A DNA stretch of 39,229 nucleotides, taken from positions 1 through 39,229 of the forward strand of contig CALHXU010000118.1 in the NCBI GenBank assembly GCA_938040365.1, written 5' to 3'. The stretch is from an uncultured Acidimicrobiales bacterium. Lineage in GTDB: Bacteria > Actinomycetota > Acidimicrobiia > Acidimicrobiales > SHLQ01. The position numbers and the translations under genes are program-made. Shown here one piece after another: positions 24,021 through 29,815 of the stretch. The notes under the pieces are model-generated. The model did no database searches and was not told the origin of the DNA. It saw nothing but the letters and a program-made list of their open reading frames with translations. Each line of letters starts with the position of its first letter. Position 1 is the first letter of the stretch.

Positions 24021-24776
24021 CTACTCGGTCGCTTCCGAGCGATCTCGCAGGTAGCGGTGAAAGAGAAAGCCATCATCGTGGAGCGTCCGGTCAAGACGGA
24101 ACGCTCGAGGCCGCAAAGTGTTCTTGGAATGGGCGACCCGCGCGCTACTGCCCGAAACGAGGAGGGGTGCAACCGATTGGCACCACTCATCGATTAGGTC
24201 CTCGTCAGCAAAGGCGCCGTTGAGCGTGGGCCCGCCTTCGAGTAGCGCAACCGCCGCGCCATCCAATGCGAGCTGGTGGAGCGCGTCATGAATATCGACC
24301 ACTGTTTCGCCGGCAACCATGACGTCGCAAACCTCGGCGAGTGCGGCGCGTCGATCGATGGGCGAGTTCGCGTGGGTGATCACTATGGGCGGCGTTTCGC
24401 TCTCGAAGACCCGATGGTCGAGGTCGATCGAGAGGCTTCCCGAGAAGATCGCGATTCGGGGGAGCGGCGCTTGGCCTCGAGCCATGCGTTGGGCCCGAAT
24501 CGACGGCGGGGTTTGGGGCTCGCGGTAGTTCTCGGCAATCACCGTCCCAGACGCGACCAAAATGACATCGGCGACCCCACGGATGGCCGAGAAGACCGCC
24601 TTATCGCCCGAGCCGCCAAGGCCTCCCGAGACACCGTCGATGTCGGTCGCTCCATCGATGCTCGAGATCATGTTGGTCAGAACCCACGGACGATCTCCCA
24701 CCCGCCGACGAACATCACTACCAAATTGTCGTACTGGATCGACATCGTCCACAGGGGTAGGGAAAGTTTGCTCCAT
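24021..24776 (-). CDS. Stand-alone RibD C-terminal-type reductase
   Basis: The product has 251 residues and matches the RibD_C/dihydrofolate-reductase-like fold: RPWVLTNMISSIDGATD, GSGDKAVFSAIRGVADVILVASGTVIAENYR, and ALLEGGPTLNGAFADEDLIDEW. In riboflavin synthesis this domain reduces the ribosylamino-pyrimidine phosphate with NADPH. The deaminase half of RibD is absent, as in many actinobacterial pyrimidine reductase family proteins, so the substrate may differ. The ATG at 24776 has no Shine-Dalgarno sequence but follows a TATCGT -10 box by 8 bases. It stands divergently from nrdJ, next to where nrdR is found in several actinobacteria. Confidence 0.85.
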   Translation of the reverse strand: MEQTFPTPVDDVDPVRQFGSDVRRRVGDRPWVLTNMISSIDGATDIDGVSGGLGGSGDKAVFSAIRGVADVILVASGTVIAENYREPQTPPSIRAQRMARGQAPLPRIAIFSGSLSIDLDHRVFESETPPIVITHANSPIDRRAALAEVCDVMVAGETVVDIHDALHQLALDGAAVALLEGGPTLNGAFADEDLIDEWCQSVAPLLVSGSSARVAHSKNTLRPRAFRLDRTLHDDGFLFHRYLRDRSEATE

Positions 24777-24784
24777 GATCCGCA

Positions 24785-24790
24785 ACGATA
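24785..24790 (-). promoter_or_regulatory. -10 box (TATCGT) of the RibD-like gene, leaderless type
   Basis: TATCGT on the minus strand, 8 bases, then the ATG at 24776. No ribosome-binding site is present. Confidence 0.45.
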
Positions 24791-24833
24791 TCGGCCGACT
24801 GCTCAAGCTCGCCGGTGACCACATTGGCAGATG

Positions 24834-24858
24834 TGTGGATAACTGTGGACAAATCCAC
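24834..24858. promoter_or_regulatory. Pair of DnaA boxes between the RibD-like gene and nrdJ
   Basis: TGTGGATAA (24834-24842) is the complement of the classical DnaA box TTATCCACA, and TGTGGACAA (24844-24852) is the complement of the actinobacterial form TTGTCCACA. They stand in tandem one base apart. The inverted half ATCCAC follows. The pair lies about 50 bp upstream of the -10 box proposed for nrdJ. Confidence 0.75.
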
Positions 24859-24882
24859 TCGATATCAACAGCTCATCCCCTT

Positions 24883-24910
24883 TTGTTGCACAGGGCACTG
24901 TCCGTATCAT
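24883..24910 (+). promoter_or_regulatory. Proposed promoter of the nrdJ leader
   Basis: TTGTTG (24883-24888), 16 bases, then TATCAT (24905-24910). The predicted start at about 24917 coincides with the first base of the long leader helix. The -35 is weak; the -10 fits TANNNT. Confidence 0.5.
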
Positions 24911-24916
24911 CTCGGG

Positions 24917-25184
24917 AGCGGCTGGCGCGGGCTCAGGCACGATGGAGTTCTCGCGACCGTGAGGACTGACCCCAGAGCCTTTGCGCCAGCCGCCGATCAG
25001 ACCGTTGGTCCGGCAGTTCGTGCATCGATGCCGTACCCTGAAAGGGCGAGACACGTGTATTTGGGCCGTGAGAGACGAGACTGCGCACGGCGTGCTCTAC
25101 CGCTTCACCAAATACGATCCGGCTCAACCCAGCCAACCGAACCACCGCTGAGTCTCATCTCGCAATGGCAACGATAGGAAATTC
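24917..25184 (+). ncRNA. Structured 5' leader of nrdJ, candidate cis-regulatory RNA
   Basis: This gene-free stretch folds repeatedly by eye. An 11-bp perfect stem (24918-24928 with 24983-24993) continues after a 2-nt bulge into a 6-bp stem (24929-24934 with 24975-24980) and is capped by AGTTCTC/GAGGACT (24946-24952 with 24961-24967). Next come GCCG/GACC hairpin arms (24992-25014), CCCT-GAA-AGGG (25036-25046), and a two-part stem: GTATTTGG (25057-25064) with CCAAATAC (25108-25115), enclosing GCCGTG (25065-25070) with CACGGC (25086-25091). The loop 25072-25082 can pair at 10 of 11 positions with 25151-25161, which ends 12 bases before the ribosome-binding site at 25174-25181. I do not see cobalamin-, c-di-AMP- or T-box consensus motifs. 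Competing idea: a 49-codon frame from 25028 to 25177. Confidence 0.5.
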
Positions 25185-28100
25185 ATGTCACTTACGCCTC
25201 CGTCATTGAGCGCTGCCCTCGGGATTCGTCGCACCTTCACGACTCGCGACACGCCCGTCTATGACATGTTCGACTGGGAGCTTCGTGATGCCAAGATTCA
25301 CGACTGGCGCACCGGCGTTGTTGCCTTTGAACAATCCAATGTCGAGGTTCCGTCCAACTGGTCGATCAACGCGTCGAACATCCTCGCCCAAAAGTACTTT
25401 CGTGGCACGCTCGACACCCCCGAACGCGAATCCTCGCTTCGCCAGGTAACCGACCGTGTCGTCGACACGATCACCCGATGGGGCGTCGAAGGCAACTACT
25501 TCGCCGACGACGCCGAGGCCGAGGTGTTCTCCGACGAGCTGAAATACCTGATCGTCAGCCAGAAGATGGCCTTCAACAGCCCGGTCTGGTTCAACATTGG
25601 CGTCGATGGCGTTCCCCAGCAGGCCTCGGCGTGTTTCATCTTGTCGGTCGAGGACACGATGGAATCGATCCTCAACTGGTACCGAGAGGAGGGCATGATC
25701 TTCAAAGGTGGGTCTGGTGCAGGCGTCAACCTCTCCAAGATCCGCTCGTCGGTCGAAACGCTCAAGGGAGGCGGCACCCCGTCGGGTCCGGTCAGCTTTA
25801 TGCGAGGGGCCGATGCGTCGGCTGGGACGATCAAGAGCGGCGGAAAGACCCGTCGTGCCGCAAAGATGGTCATGCTCGACGTCGACCACCCCGACGTCGA
25901 AGAGTTCGTGTGGTGTAAAGCAAGAGAAGAGAAGAAGGCGCGTGCGTTACGTGATGCCGGGTTCGACATGGACCTCGATGGCGCCGATTCGTTCTCCATC
26001 CAATACCAGAACGCGAACAACTCGGTTCGAGTCACCGACGAGTTCATGGAGGCGGTCGAGAACGGCGATGACTGGCACCTCCGTGCTGTCTCGACCGGCG
26101 AGATCGTAAAGTCGATGCCGGCGCGCGAACTACTGGGCGAGATCGCAACCGCAGCATGGGAGTGCGCAGACCCCGGCGTGCAGTACGACTCGACGATAAA
26201 CCGCTGGCATACCACACCATCGTTCGGCCGAATCAACGGTAGTAATCCATGCTTTACAGGCGATTCGCTCGTGCACACCGATCGAGGGCTCATCTCGTTC
26301 GAAGAGATTGTTCGCCGTACCCAAGAGGGCGAGAGCTTTCAGGTCTACACCCACGACATCACAAACGCCGACGCTCCGAAGAAGGCAACGCTTCTGTCAT
26401 CACCCGAGGCGATCATGATCACCGGGGTGAACCCGATCGTCCGTCTTGAGTTCGCCAATGGCATGACCGTTCGATGCACACCAAACCACAGCTTTTTCAC
26501 GTCGAACCGCGGTTGGGTAGCGGCCGAGGATCTCACCCACGACGATGAGGTAGCGACCCTCGATGTTGCATCGCCTCCGGCTCTCTCGGACTACTCATTG
26601 CCTGTCTCGACGGCTTCAGATGCCTACCGGCTTTCCGGTTACTCAAAGCAGGAGCTTCAACTTCCCGAGAAGTGGACCAGCGATTTCGCTCACTATCTCG
26701 GCTGGGTTGTCGGCGATGGCTGTATTTCGACCAATACCGTGTCTGCCATTTACGGGTCGAAGGTCGAACAGGACGAGTTGCTACCGAAGCATCGTGAGTT
26801 CGTTACCGAAATTTTGAACGGCCAAGCTCCCAAAGTCTCAATTCAGAGCAACGGCACGGCGCAGCTGCGCGTCACTCGAGGAGCGTTTGCACGCTTTATC
26901 GAGTCGCTTGGCGTCAAAGCGGTCCGGTCGGCCGACAAGACCGTTCCTTGGTCTATCGAGCAGGCCCCAGCAGACATCGCTGGTGCGTTCCTTCAGGGTC
27001 TCTTCGACGCCGACGGAACGGTTGTGTTCAACGAATCGAAAGGCCACTACGTCGGGCTCGGTTCAACCTCGAAGGAGCTGCTCCAAGGAGTGCAGCGTTT
27101 GCTCTCCCAGTTCGGTGTGTCCAGTCGCATCTACCGCACCAAGACCGCCAGCGATTCGGGGTTCCACTACCAGCGCGCCGATGGGACCACGGTCGGTTAC
27201 GGCTCGTCACCGATGTTCGACCTTCGAATTTCATCCTCGAGCATCGATGGATTTGCTCAGCACGTGGGATTCGGCCTTGCGAGCAAGCAGGAGCGCCTCG
27301 AATCGGTGTTCGCAGCTCGAAAGAAGAAGCCCTACAACGTCAAGACGTCGACCAGGTTGGTGCTGCGCGAGGCCCAGCCCGCCGAGCTGACCTACAACCT
27401 TTCTGAGCCTCGTAACCATTCCTATGTTGTCAACGGCTTGGTCGTGAAGAATTGCTCGGAATACATGCACGTCGATAACAGCGCGTGCAACTTAGCGAGC
27501 CTCAATTTGTTGGCGTTCCACCGGCCCGAAGAGACTGGGAACTTCTTTGAGGTGAACGAGTTTGTCGCGGCGACCGAACTGGTCTTTGCCGCCCAAGAGA
27601 TCGTCGTTGGTCGGGCTGACTATCCAACCGAGCCCATCGCTCGCAACACGCGCCGTTTCCGCCAGATTGGGCTTGGCTATGCGAATCTCGGCGCTCTGCT
27701 TATGGCTGCGGGCGCTCCATATGACTCCGATCGAGGTCGCGCTCTTGCCGGAGCGGTTACTGCGCTCATGGGTGGGTCGGCGTACAACATGTCGACTCGG
27801 CTCGCCGCACGAGTTGGCCCCTTCGAGGGCTACGAGGACGACGCGGCGAGCGTCGAGCGCGTGCTCGGCATGCATCGGTCTGCGGTCGACGAGATCGATG
27901 CCGACCTCGTTCCCGCAGAGTTGTTGAGCGCAGCACATGCAGCATGGGACGACACCTGCGTTCGGGCCACCGAGCATGGGGTTCGTAACGCTCAGGCGAC
28001 CGTCCTCGCTCCGACCGGAACTATCAGCTTCCTTATGGACTGTGACACCACCGGTATCGAACCCGACCTCGGGTTGGTCAAGATGAAGAAACTCGTCGGC

Positions 28101-29150
28101 GGCGGAACGATGCAGATCGTCAACCAAGGCGTTGGTCGTGCGCTCGGCCAACTCGGTTACGACGAGACAGCGGTCGAAGGGATCGTTGCCCATATTGCAG
28201 ATACGGGCTCGGTGATCGGCGCTCCGGACCTCGCCGAAGAGCACATTGCAGTATTCGCCTGCTCGATGGGCGACAACGTGATCGCTCCAGAAGGCCACAT
28301 CCAGATGATGGCGGCCGTCCAGCCATTCCTGTCGGGAGCGATTTCGAAGACGGTCAACACCCCCGAGTCGACAACGGTCGAGGAATTCGAACAGATCCTG
28401 ATCGACAGCTGGAAACTCGGCCTCAAGGCCGTTGCCCTCTACCGAGACAACTGCAAGGTCGCACAGCCGCTCACGGCCAAGTCGTCGACCTCGGACAACG
28501 ACCAGCCCGGTGCGCTCGCCGGTGCCGGTATCGTCGCTCGAACCCCCGAACGAGAGCGCCTTCCGCGCTCGAGACGGTCACAGACCTTCGAGTTTCGAGT
28601 CGCCGACTGCAAAGGGTTTGTCACCGTTGGCGAGTACGACGATGGGCGCCCCGGAGAACTGTTCATTCGCGTCTCGAAACAGGGGTCGACCCTGGCCGGA
28701 ATTATGGATGCGTTCGCCATCTCGGTGAGCCACGGACTGCAATACGGCGTTCCGCTCGCAGCGTTCGTCGACGCCTTTGTCGGAATGCGCTTCGAGCCTG
28801 CTGGCATGACCGATGATGCCGAGTTGCGCATCGCATCAAGCCTCATGGACTACCTCTTCCGCCGGCTCGCCGTCGAGTACATGACCAACGAAGAACGAAC
28901 AGCACGAAACATCCTCACGACGGGGGAGCGGAGCCAACCAACGCTTCCGGGCGTTGCGGAAGCGGCCATTCCATCGATCCAAGGCGGCGATGTACCGAGC
29001 GACCCGCCGACACGGCAGCTCCACGAAACGATTGCGCCCGACGACAGCGCATCTGATGCACCCTTCTGCGGCCAGTGCGGCACACAGATGGTGCGTGCGG
29101 GTAGCTGTCACGCGTGCCGCGACTGCGGCTCAACCTCGGGCTGCTCATGA
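25185..29150 (+). CDS. nrdJ: Adenosylcobalamin-dependent ribonucleotide reductase NrdJ with an intein
   Basis: Class II RNR reduces ribonucleotides to deoxyribonucleotides using B12. The 1321-residue precursor would give a 920-residue enzyme after removal of a 401-residue intein. Cys150 (QASACFIL) and Cys768 (NSACNLASLNLL) match the disulfide pair. The radical cysteine with its Asn and Glu neighbours is the NP|CSEY motif split by the intein. APTGTIS and GGTMQIVNQG follow. A TSCPD-type domain (RVADCKGFVTVGEYDDGRPGEL) and a Cys-rich tail (FCGQCGTQM, CHACRDCGSTSGCS) complete the actinobacterial type. ATG 25185 has ATAGGAAA just upstream. A structured leader and DnaA boxes precede it; tdk follows after 65 bases. 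Confidence 0.96.
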   Translation: MSLTPPSLSAALGIRRTFTTRDTPVYDMFDWELRDAKIHDWRTGVVAFEQSNVEVPSNWSINASNILAQKYFRGTLDTPERESSLRQVTDRVVDTITRWGVEGNYFADDAEAEVFSDELKYLIVSQKMAFNSPVWFNIGVDGVPQQASACFILSVEDTMESILNWYREEGMIFKGGSGAGVNLSKIRSSVETLKGGGTPSGPVSFMRGADASAGTIKSGGKTRRAAKMVMLDVDHPDVEEFVWCKAREEKKARALRDAGFDMDLDGADSFSIQYQNANNSVRVTDEFMEAVENGDDWHLRAVSTGEIVKSMPARELLGEIATAAWECADPGVQYDSTINRWHTTPSFGRINGSNPCFTGDSLVHTDRGLISFEEIVRRTQEGESFQVYTHDITNADAPKKATLLSSPEAIMITGVNPIVRLEFANGMTVRCTPNHSFFTSNRGWVAAEDLTHDDEVATLDVASPPALSDYSLPVSTASDAYRLSGYSKQELQLPEKWTSDFAHYLGWVVGDGCISTNTVSAIYGSKVEQDELLPKHREFVTEILNGQAPKVSIQSNGTAQLRVTRGAFARFIESLGVKAVRSADKTVPWSIEQAPADIAGAFLQGLFDADGTVVFNESKGHYVGLGSTSKELLQGVQRLLSQFGVSSRIYRTKTASDSGFHYQRADGTTVGYGSSPMFDLRISSSSIDGFAQHVGFGLASKQERLESVFAARKKKPYNVKTSTRLVLREAQPAELTYNLSEPRNHSYVVNGLVVKNCSEYMHVDNSACNLASLNLLAFHRPEETGNFFEVNEFVAATELVFAAQEIVVGRADYPTEPIARNTRRFRQIGLGYANLGALLMAAGAPYDSDRGRALAGAVTALMGGSAYNMSTRLAARVGPFEGYEDDAASVERVLGMHRSAVDEIDADLVPAELLSAAHAAWDDTCVRATEHGVRNAQATVLAPTGTISFLMDCDTTGIEPDLGLVKMKKLVGGGTMQIVNQGVGRALGQLGYDETAVEGIVAHIADTGSVIGAPDLAEEHIAVFACSMGDNVIAPEGHIQMMAAVQPFLSGAISKTVNTPESTTVEEFEQILIDSWKLGLKAVALYRDNCKVAQPLTAKSSTSDNDQPGALAGAGIVARTPERERLPRSRRSQTFEFRVADCKGFVTVGEYDDGRPGELFIRVSKQGSTLAGIMDAFAISVSHGLQYGVPLAAFVDAFVGMRFEPAGMTDDAELRIASSLMDYLFRRLAVEYMTNEERTARNILTTGERSQPTLPGVAEAAIPSIQGGDVPSDPPTRQLHETIAPDDSASDAPFCGQCGTQMVRAGSCHACRDCGSTSGCS
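26250..27452 (+). mobile_element. Intein with LAGLIDADG homing endonuclease inside nrdJ
   Basis: Residues 356-756 of the precursor. The N-terminal splicing block is CFTGDSLVHTDRGLISFEEI with nucleophile Cys1. Block B has the TPNHSF motif. Two dodecapeptides, YLGWVVGDGCIS and AFLQGLFDADGTV, mark a full DOD endonuclease. The C-terminal blocks read RNHSYVVNGLVVKN, ending in Asn, with Cys as the +1 residue. The penultimate residue is Lys instead of the usual His. Its insertion point lies directly before the catalytic radical cysteine of the host enzyme, so the unspliced protein must be inactive. Confidence 0.95.
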
Positions 29151-29202
29151 GCACGTCGATATCTGGAATTTCCGTTCAACAGACCCTGCCCGGCACCCGT
29201 AG

Positions 29203-29208
29203 TAGCCT
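29203..29208 (+). promoter_or_regulatory. tdk -10 box (TAGCCT), leaderless type
   Basis: TAGCCT, exactly 7 bases, then the ATG at 29216, with no Shine-Dalgarno sequence. Confidence 0.55.
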
Positions 29209-29215
29209 CGCGGTC

Positions 29216-29815
29216 ATGGGAATTCTGCGCTTCTCATTCGGGACGATGGGCTCGGGCAAGTCCACGATGGCGCTGCAAATTCATCACAACCTCACCCACG
29301 GCGGCCTCAACGGAGCGCTGTGTACCATGCTCGACCGGACTGGTTCTCGTGTGAGTTCTCGCCTCGGCGTGTCCGCCGACGCGGTCGTCATCGACCCGTC
29401 GGTCAACCTCCTCGACGTCGCGAAGAATGACGGCAGCAAGCTCGACTATCTGGTGTGTGACGAAGCCCAGTTCTACACCCCCGAACAGATCGACCAACTC
29501 GCCGAAGTGGTCGACTCGCTCCGACTCGACGTCTTTGCGTTCGGGCTACTGACCGACTTCCGGGGGAAGCTCTTCCCCGGCACGGCTCGGCTGCTCGAAC
29601 TTGCCGATATCACCGAGGAGATCCAGTGTGAGGCACGCTGCTGGTGTGGTAACCGTGCAACGCACAATGCGCGTCTGATCGATGGCGTTCAGGTTTATGA
29701 GGGCGAGCTCATGATGGTCGACAACCAAGAGATCGAACCACAGGTGAGCTACGAGCTTCGTTGTCGAGCGCACTGGATGTCGGGCGAGGGACGCAGCGAC
29801 ATCCACCTCGACTAA
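29216..29815 (+). CDS. tdk: Thymidine kinase
   Basis: Type II thymidine kinase makes dTMP from thymidine in the salvage pathway. The 199-residue product has the P-loop GTMGSGKS at 9-16, the DEAQFY segment, and the zinc cysteines CEARCWCG and RCRAHW with the lasso region NARLIDGVQVYEGE. The ATG at 29216 is supported by a TAGCCT -10 box 7 bases upstream; the longer frame to 29114 would overlap nrdJ. It lies 65 bases after nrdJ on the same strand, pairing de novo and salvage dNTP supply. It converges with the subtilase gene, with 9 bases between the stops. Confidence 0.92.
   Translation: MGILRFSFGTMGSGKSTMALQIHHNLTHGGLNGALCTMLDRTGSRVSSRLGVSADAVVIDPSVNLLDVAKNDGSKLDYLVCDEAQFYTPEQIDQLAEVVDSLRLDVFAFGLLTDFRGKLFPGTARLLELADITEEIQCEARCWCGNRATHNARLIDGVQVYEGELMMVDNQEIEPQVSYELRCRAHWMSGEGRSDIHLD

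Follow-up and report, generated by a model that had tools for sequence, protein, structure and literature searches.

The locus raises the question of whether the leader of nrdJ, the gene of a class II ribonucleotide reductase (RNR), contains a structured regulatory RNA and, if so, which part of the leader forms it. The window, i.e. the whole stretch of 39,229 nucleotides which was analysed, belongs to an uncultured Acidimicrobiales bacterium with a genome (G000) of 3.63 Mb that is 90.7% complete. The genes and signals around the leader are as follows:

24021 to 24824, minus strand: RibD-like gene, divergent, upstream of nrdJ
25176 to 25179, plus strand: likely Shine-Dalgarno sequence AGGA of nrdJ, assigned from the sequence only
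25185 to 29150, plus strand: nrdJ, class II (B12-dependent) RNR with intein (Pfam PF02867, PF08471, PF14890, PF14528)
29114 to 29815, plus strand: tdk, thymidine kinase gene (Pfam PF00265), overlapping the end of nrdJ

Genes for a LysM protein and lexA are also located upstream of nrdJ in the window, and the region between the start of the RibD-like gene and nrdJ comprises 360 nt. Since the end of nrdJ overlaps with tdk, both genes are probably on one transcript. A tdk match behind nrdJ was also obtained in G004 and G003, and for G016 the adjacency was inferred from the positions; these three genomes are NrdR-less. Within the 1.6-1.8 kb fetched behind nrdJ, tdk was not found in two genomes with NrdR. 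Nine of the 11 genomes of the same genus, G000 included, have an nrdJ match. The intein of the window nrdJ (25185-29150) includes a LAGLIDADG domain; according to match and frame lengths, an intein is probably also present in the nrdJ genes of G005 and G009 and not in that of G004.

Upstream of the leader, the following features were found:

24834 to 24852, minus strand: two DnaA-box-type 9-mers, TTATCCACA (24834-24842) and TTGTCCACA (24844-24852)
24848 to 24910, plus strand: promoter region, conserved, which contains CCAC/CACAG repeats and CCCCTTTT and is recognized by a nucleotide profile built from 32 upstream regions of the order
24905 to 24910, plus strand: -10 hexamer TATCAT (TANNNT), 7 nt before stem P1

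The promoter profile matched 9/9 genus loci directly before the element described below, with E-values between 7e-11 and 7.5e-6 (window, E = 7.5e-6), and no other match was better than E = 1.3. A promoter-core pattern was found in 9/11 genus genomes, at one place per genome and only upstream of nrdJ, and in 0/48 other relatives. The hexamer TANNNT is kept at a spacing of exactly 7 nt before P1 in 9/9 genus leaders, which places the RNA start at the stem (~24917). Thus, the initial annotation was right in positioning the first stem at the predicted +1 of a TANNNT promoter. In G009, G010 and G007, a common sequence TTGACAAA...TCGTTCT is located between element and nrdJ (loci L033, L039 and L040); going by its letters, it might serve as a second promoter, one that lacks NrdR boxes.

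The 9-mer TTRTCCACA occurs only twice in the whole window, both times at 24834-24852 (expected, 0.31; two or more in 4/100 shuffles). These candidates were named after what we take to be the DnaA-box consensus, and TGTGGAYAA sites recur in 6/8 other genus nrdJ leaders. The RNR genes of E. coli are under DnaA control. A replication origin at nrdJ was rejected despite the DnaA-type boxes; nrdJ is found at 0.49-0.63 along the record in three genomes which have nrdJ on one long contig, a weak test that depends on where the records start.

The stem at the predicted RNA start closes a compact element, the parts of which are:

24917 to 24994, plus strand: structured leader RNA element, genus version (z = -5.57, 0/500 shuffles as stable)
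24918 to 24928, plus strand: 5' strand of P1, a perfect stem of 11 bp with 24983-24993
24929 to 24934, plus strand: 5' strand of the inner P1 extension, 6 bp with 24975-24980
24936 to 24945, plus strand: 5' part of the conserved core, GGCACGATGG (GGCACGMTGG in 9/9 genus leaders)
24946 to 24967, plus strand: hairpin P3 between the core parts, 15 to 69 nt within the genus
24968 to 24973, plus strand: 3' part of the conserved core, GACCCC (9/9 genus leaders, preceded by T in 8/9)
24975 to 24980, plus strand: 3' strand of the inner P1 extension, pairing with 24929-24934
24983 to 24993, plus strand: 3' strand of P1, pairing with 24918-24928

The first stem, described earlier as 11 bp plus 6 bp with a 2-nt bulge, is therefore present (24918-24934 with 24975-24993). 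The accompanying claim that the whole 268-nt gap before nrdJ is a chain of helices did not hold, as the full leader has a z of only -1.40, and 15/200 shuffles are as stable. The nrdJ leader does contain a structured RNA, which is smaller than, and other than, the one proposed. The element, i.e. the closing stem with GGCACGMTGG, hairpin and GACCCC, is found at the same place in 9/9 genus genomes with nrdJ, and within the genus no variation is seen at 9/10 bases of the 5' part and 6/6 bases of the 3' part of the core, none of which belongs to P1. A search with the core pattern gave one match before nrdJ in each of 8/11 genus genomes, four of which have one or two additional matches elsewhere; G006 has the element too, with a P3 too long for the pattern. 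In G004, the closest relative, the sequence from the promoter through this first element aligns with the window at 83%. The eight distinct genus versions have z values of -2.5 to -5.8, and of 200 shuffles for each, between 0 and 6 were as stable.

Covariation in P1 was examined for the outer 8 pairs in a hand-made alignment, in which identical rows were merged (9 genomes, 7 rows). Of the cells, 94.6% are paired (0/5000 shuffles as high), two-sided changes were counted for 6 pairs (13/5000 shuffles) and four pair types occur at three positions. It is the compensatory changes that establish the structure. Two other readings of the region were rejected: a coding reading, the frame 24815-25177 spanning promoter and element, with the DNA downstream of the element not kept in G004; and a terminator of the upstream gene, because the RibD-like gene is divergent and points away.

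The nrdJ leaders of other genera of the window's family and of other families begin with a three-way junction (P1, P2, P3). It comprises, in this order, P1 of at least 12 pairs, a GGATGGTGGYTGRCG-like segment, hairpin P2 (loop near CTCGGTGGG), then GACGACTCCTTGG, a variable P3, ACCTG and the 3' strand of P1; junction segments and P2 loop are largely kept. In an alignment of 15 sequences (L053 included), 94.8% of cells are paired and 21/24 pairs are changed on both sides, the alignment having been fitted to the model, which favours the covariation count. For the 7 founding sequences, aligned using MAFFT after the inner part of P3 had been removed, 15/24 pairs were counted. None of 500 shuffles of the 15-sequence alignment reached any of five measures, and slid controls had 37.6-52.0% of cells paired. 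Alignment A3 was made without G017 (a near copy) and without G034, G051 and G037 (too divergent), and alignment A5, the basis of model R2, without L053, which A4 does contain. The three divergent sequences appear to be members by eye, but they were set aside as they have no support from R2.

Model R1 matched 12/297 genomes of the order at one place each, and in 12/12 NrdJ was found downstream (tblastn). Model R2 matched 25/395 genomes of the class, again at one place each, and NrdJ follows directly in 23 of these (tblastn); the two matches without NrdJ downstream rank last (E = 0.084 and 0.097). The association with nrdJ is therefore established, and the members detectable by either model are a minority of the genomes searched. 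When 396 sampled genomes of the phylum were searched with R2, three matches at E ≤ 0.02 were obtained, all from the same order. R2 also matches the AT-rich G044, which is outside the model set (20.3 bits, E = 0.0066 in 11.6 kb). A stretch GAACCTTCGCGA...TGACC before the NrdR promoter is shared by nrdJ leaders of different families (L044, L048, L055, L056, L060, L061, L090). In L044, this stretch corresponds to P3 and 3' core of the order-level element (18.0 bits), so these seven loci may contain further, diverged members. In locus L085 (G030), the Shine-Dalgarno sequence of nrdJ is immediately preceded by TTTTTTCTTT, and this in turn by a GC-rich stem.

Genus and order versions have in common their place and the homologous promoter directly upstream (9/9 genus loci), and by model score the link between them is weak. 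The genus element of G006 was matched by R2 with 18.4 bits (E = 0.15), with GGCACGCUGG aligned to GGAUGGUGG, and it was the top match with the same score (E = 0.044) when 8/9 genus loci were searched, G007 being left out. G004 reached 12.7 bits (E 0.57; opposite strand, 11.3 bits) and the window copy in G000 11.9 bits (E = 0.8; opposite strand, 11.0 bits), and the other genus elements scored below these three; a chance match of R2 inside a gene on the wrong strand gave 14.8 bits (L047). The core is partly different between the two versions. The genus element is likely a reduced descendant of the three-way junction which has lost P2.

To place the RNA among known families, Rfam 15 was used. At the gathering score, no match was obtained in the window or in 20 nrdJ loci, in agreement with the earlier remark that the leader could not be fitted to the riboswitch consensus motifs considered. 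At E ≤ 5, there was no match at the element in 16 loci, and at E ≤ 10, the 20 loci gave three unrelated families only, none of them at the element (E 0.85-5.3). Near the window leader, three sub-threshold matches are at chance level, given their E-values of 1.1-7.2, and no match to Rfam was obtained for the nrdAB region in two genomes. The taxon was not named among the matches listed from the literature on RNA motifs and riboswitch candidates. As far as the literature searched and Rfam 15 go, the leader RNA is uncatalogued and unpublished.

The nrdJ RNA of Streptomyces (RF03034), attributed to Weinberg et al. 2017 (PMC8388888), is alike in being a small structured RNA directly upstream of nrdJ. 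It differs in structure, its 80-nt model comprising two tandem hairpins, an AGACA-containing linker, a GGGAAGA-type loop and no closing stem; tandem hairpins, AGACA linker and GGGAAGA loop were not found in the folds and alignments of leaders from the window's order. As a positive control, 16 Streptomyces loci of 80 fetched were scanned and RF03034 matched 15/16 nrdJ leaders, whereas it matched none of the scanned leaders of the window's order. A match to an already catalogued nrdJ RNA, which had been considered before, can be dropped for these leaders. Conversely, R2 gave nothing credible in the 16 Streptomyces loci: its two matches (best, 12.5 bits) lie downstream of where nrdJ starts, on the opposite strand. 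RF03034 and the order-level RNA are different structures in the same place.

The cobalamin and AdoCbl riboswitch models (RF00174, RF01482) have no match at the nrdJ leader. A standard AdoCbl riboswitch (RF01482, 54.4 bits) was detected elsewhere in G000, on contig C246 (L139, 1060-1220), where it precedes a frame that we take to resemble a periplasmic binding protein and then a FecCD-like permease, presumably a transporter-like operon; the usual class is thus available for B12 in this genome. Riboswitches for 2'-deoxyguanosine are linked to RNR genes, and their architecture is unlike that of the nrdJ leader element. Described from Mesoplasma florum (Kim et al. 2007, in PMC9295807), they would be a precedent for an RNA sensing a deoxynucleoside; they have no Rfam match at the nrdJ leader. 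For cobalamin riboswitches, the likeness is that a B12-sensing leader RNA has been reported for an RNR operon, the class Ia nrdABS of Streptomyces (Borovok et al. 2006, in PMC5962746).

In most relatives outside the window's family, nrdJ is apparently controlled by the NrdR system. This system differs in that NrdR is a protein repressor, the gene of which is absent in 19/19 genomes of the window's family; 16 of these have an nrdJ match, and incompleteness (67-96% complete in this family) affects several genomes scored as NrdR-less. NrdR is also absent in 6/6 genomes of family f35, and it is present in 31/59 relatives (G000-G058). TIGR00244 (NrdR) is absent from G000 (90.7% complete) and no NrdR box was found in the 500 nt before the window nrdJ, so that neither gene nor boxes of an NrdR-regulated nrdJ promoter were detected in this genome. 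A first NrdR-box pattern was too tight (6/33 loci) and a looser one was used for the box counts: NrdR-box-like sites are present in 27/34 leaders outside the window's family, and loose matches in 2/16 leaders within it (G001, G014).

The 33 order-level loci, from which L127 and L128 were left out because no nrdJ is downstream, have two leader architectures, nrdJ starts being set by a simple rule. In 16/33, the element ends 21-110 nt before nrdJ, and no TTGACN-type promoter intervenes by pattern. In the other 17/33, the distance from element to nrdJ is 185-429 nt and a TTGACN-type promoter lies between. NrdR is absent in 15/16 loci with the short gap and present in 17/17 with the intervening promoter; this table of 33 rows was drawn up without the 9 genus genomes and G044, all NrdR-less. 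The exception is G110, which has a short leader together with NrdR; its gap contains TTGACA and TAGAAT at a spacing of 22 nt, excluded by the pattern. Thus, apart from G110, NrdR is lacking where no NrdR-type promoter intervenes. Class I RNR (NrdB) was found in 26/59 relatives, 23 of which are without NrdR, and 28/33 relatives without NrdB have NrdR, weak PF00268 matches in G031 being counted as not NrdB. Across the 59 relatives (G000-G058), NrdB and NrdR are nearly mutually exclusive. Fisher's exact test gave p ~1e-8 for each of the two tables (NrdR/promoter and NrdR/NrdB), values to be read with the caveat that the genomes do not count as independent and that not all of them are complete. 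On an NrdJ tree of 59 rows (without G011, G034, G044 and G051), the label 'no NrdR' needs 4 changes (4-6 in bootstraps), and strongly supported branches force only 1.

With moderate confidence, we regard as the best explanation a compact, cis-acting leader RNA of nrdJ with a signal-binding core, which would do the job that NrdR has in neighbouring families. The nrdJ mRNA would start at ~24917 with the compact element, consisting of the long closing stem P1, the internal core of conserved bases (GGCACGMUGG opposite GACCCC) and the apical P3. This element would be the genus version of the three-way-junction leader (P1, P2, P3). The element would be transcribed into nrdJ and act in cis on this gene, and probably also on tdk behind it. 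Binding of a signal by the conserved core would change P1 or its surroundings, by which ribosome access or RNA survival would be altered, and the leader RNA would take the role of NrdR.

A riboswitch-like, cis-acting leader which controls nrdJ-tdk where NrdR is gone is the most likely reading. Judged by sequence, a covarying structure and a conserved unpaired core occur together in a (short-gap) 5' leader, as might be expected of a riboswitch in general. A putative ligand of the element may be a deoxynucleotide-type signal or coenzyme B12; the coupling to tdk favours the former. Control is probably exerted via translation and not via an intrinsic terminator. The lack of a terminator-like T run in the window leader, reported before, was confirmed, and among the 16 short-gap loci a run of at least five T between element and gene is found in G030 only (1/16), which makes intrinsic termination unlikely in general and favours translational control. 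The order-level segment CTCCTT is complementary to an AAGGAG-type Shine-Dalgarno sequence; this complementarity was not relied on, since the segment is missing from the genus version. Tentative, and in its entirety rather doubtful, is the wider proposal that an RNA switch has replaced NrdR. According to this proposal, the nrdJ-tdk message begins with a riboswitch of a new class. By directly sensing coenzyme B12 or the supply of deoxynucleotides, this riboswitch would adjust class II RNR and thymidine salvage in those lineages of the order which have class I and class II RNR and are without NrdR.

Instead of a small molecule, a protein could bind the leader RNA, e.g. NrdJ itself or another nucleotide-sensing protein, and provide feedback without an aptamer. 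Ribosomal-protein leaders likewise have a conserved internal core within a short stem, and one model match per genome would suit such a target; however, no candidate RNA-binding partner was identified, and we consider this explanation unlikely, if worth keeping in mind. A separate small RNA, 6S-like or otherwise trans-acting, which has its own promoter and only adjoins nrdJ, is quite unlikely. It would explain the conserved promoter of the element, the closed stem beginning near +1 and the further promoter between element and nrdJ in 17/33 loci, and in Rfam the analogous nrdJ RNA of Streptomyces is classed as sRNA. Yet, 23/25 matches in the class are directly upstream of nrdJ, with one match per genome, and in 16/33 loci the gap of 21-110 nt is without another promoter by pattern; the gap of 21 nt in G011 has hardly space for one. 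In addition, 15/16 short-gap loci have no run of five or more T after the element, and Rfam scans of the nrdJ loci gave no 6S match.

That the element only stabilizes or insulates the 5' end as a constitutive stem, with no sensing, appears improbable. The letters of P1 do vary freely while the pairing is kept, and the core differs in part between genus and order versions, but the invariance of 9/10 and 6/6 core bases which are 15 to 69 nt apart speaks against it, as does the fact that the order version, too, has largely kept its junction segments and P2 loop.

The initial annotation had further proposed that a hairpin loop at 25072-25082 forms a pseudoknot with 25151-25161 and gates the ribosome-binding site. 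The pairing concerned is:

25069 to 25164, plus strand: earlier-proposed loop pairing, 25069-25082 with 25151-25164, probably incidental

As letters, the complementarity is real: over 14 nt, the two arms are 86% complementary, and in shuffles of 24995-25184 an equal 14-nt pair occurred in only 2/60 and a 10-of-11 pair in 3/60. The region itself is no more structured than its shuffles, with z = +0.86 for 24995-25184 (399/500 shuffles as stable) and z = +0.15 for 25028-25184 (280/500). G004 lacks most of the DNA that contains the 25057-25115 stem and the two pairing arms, and its remaining 89 nt contain no 11-nt pair better than 7/11, i.e. no analogue. Gating of the ribosome-binding site by this loop is therefore hardly credible, the region being neither unusually structured nor present in the closest relative. 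What stands of the cis-RNA for class II RNR is an uncatalogued, structured RNA which looks cis-acting, and the mechanism via the loop falls; something real had been noticed in the right place, for a partly wrong reason.

Returning to the leader element with a proposed signal-binding core, this conserved and uncatalogued nrdJ leader RNA is linked in an unusual way to the lack of NrdR. How much DNA precursor is supplied depends on RNR, and NrdR is described as controlling RNR genes in most bacteria (PMC9110341); at least two families are without NrdR in every genome tested (19/19 and 6/6). If the leader RNA controls nrdJ there, it would represent a new class of RNA, with few ligands to test and a partner gene that is clear. 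If this is true, the lineages with NrdR, those without it and the one genome with both would form a natural series for the replacement of protein control by an RNA.
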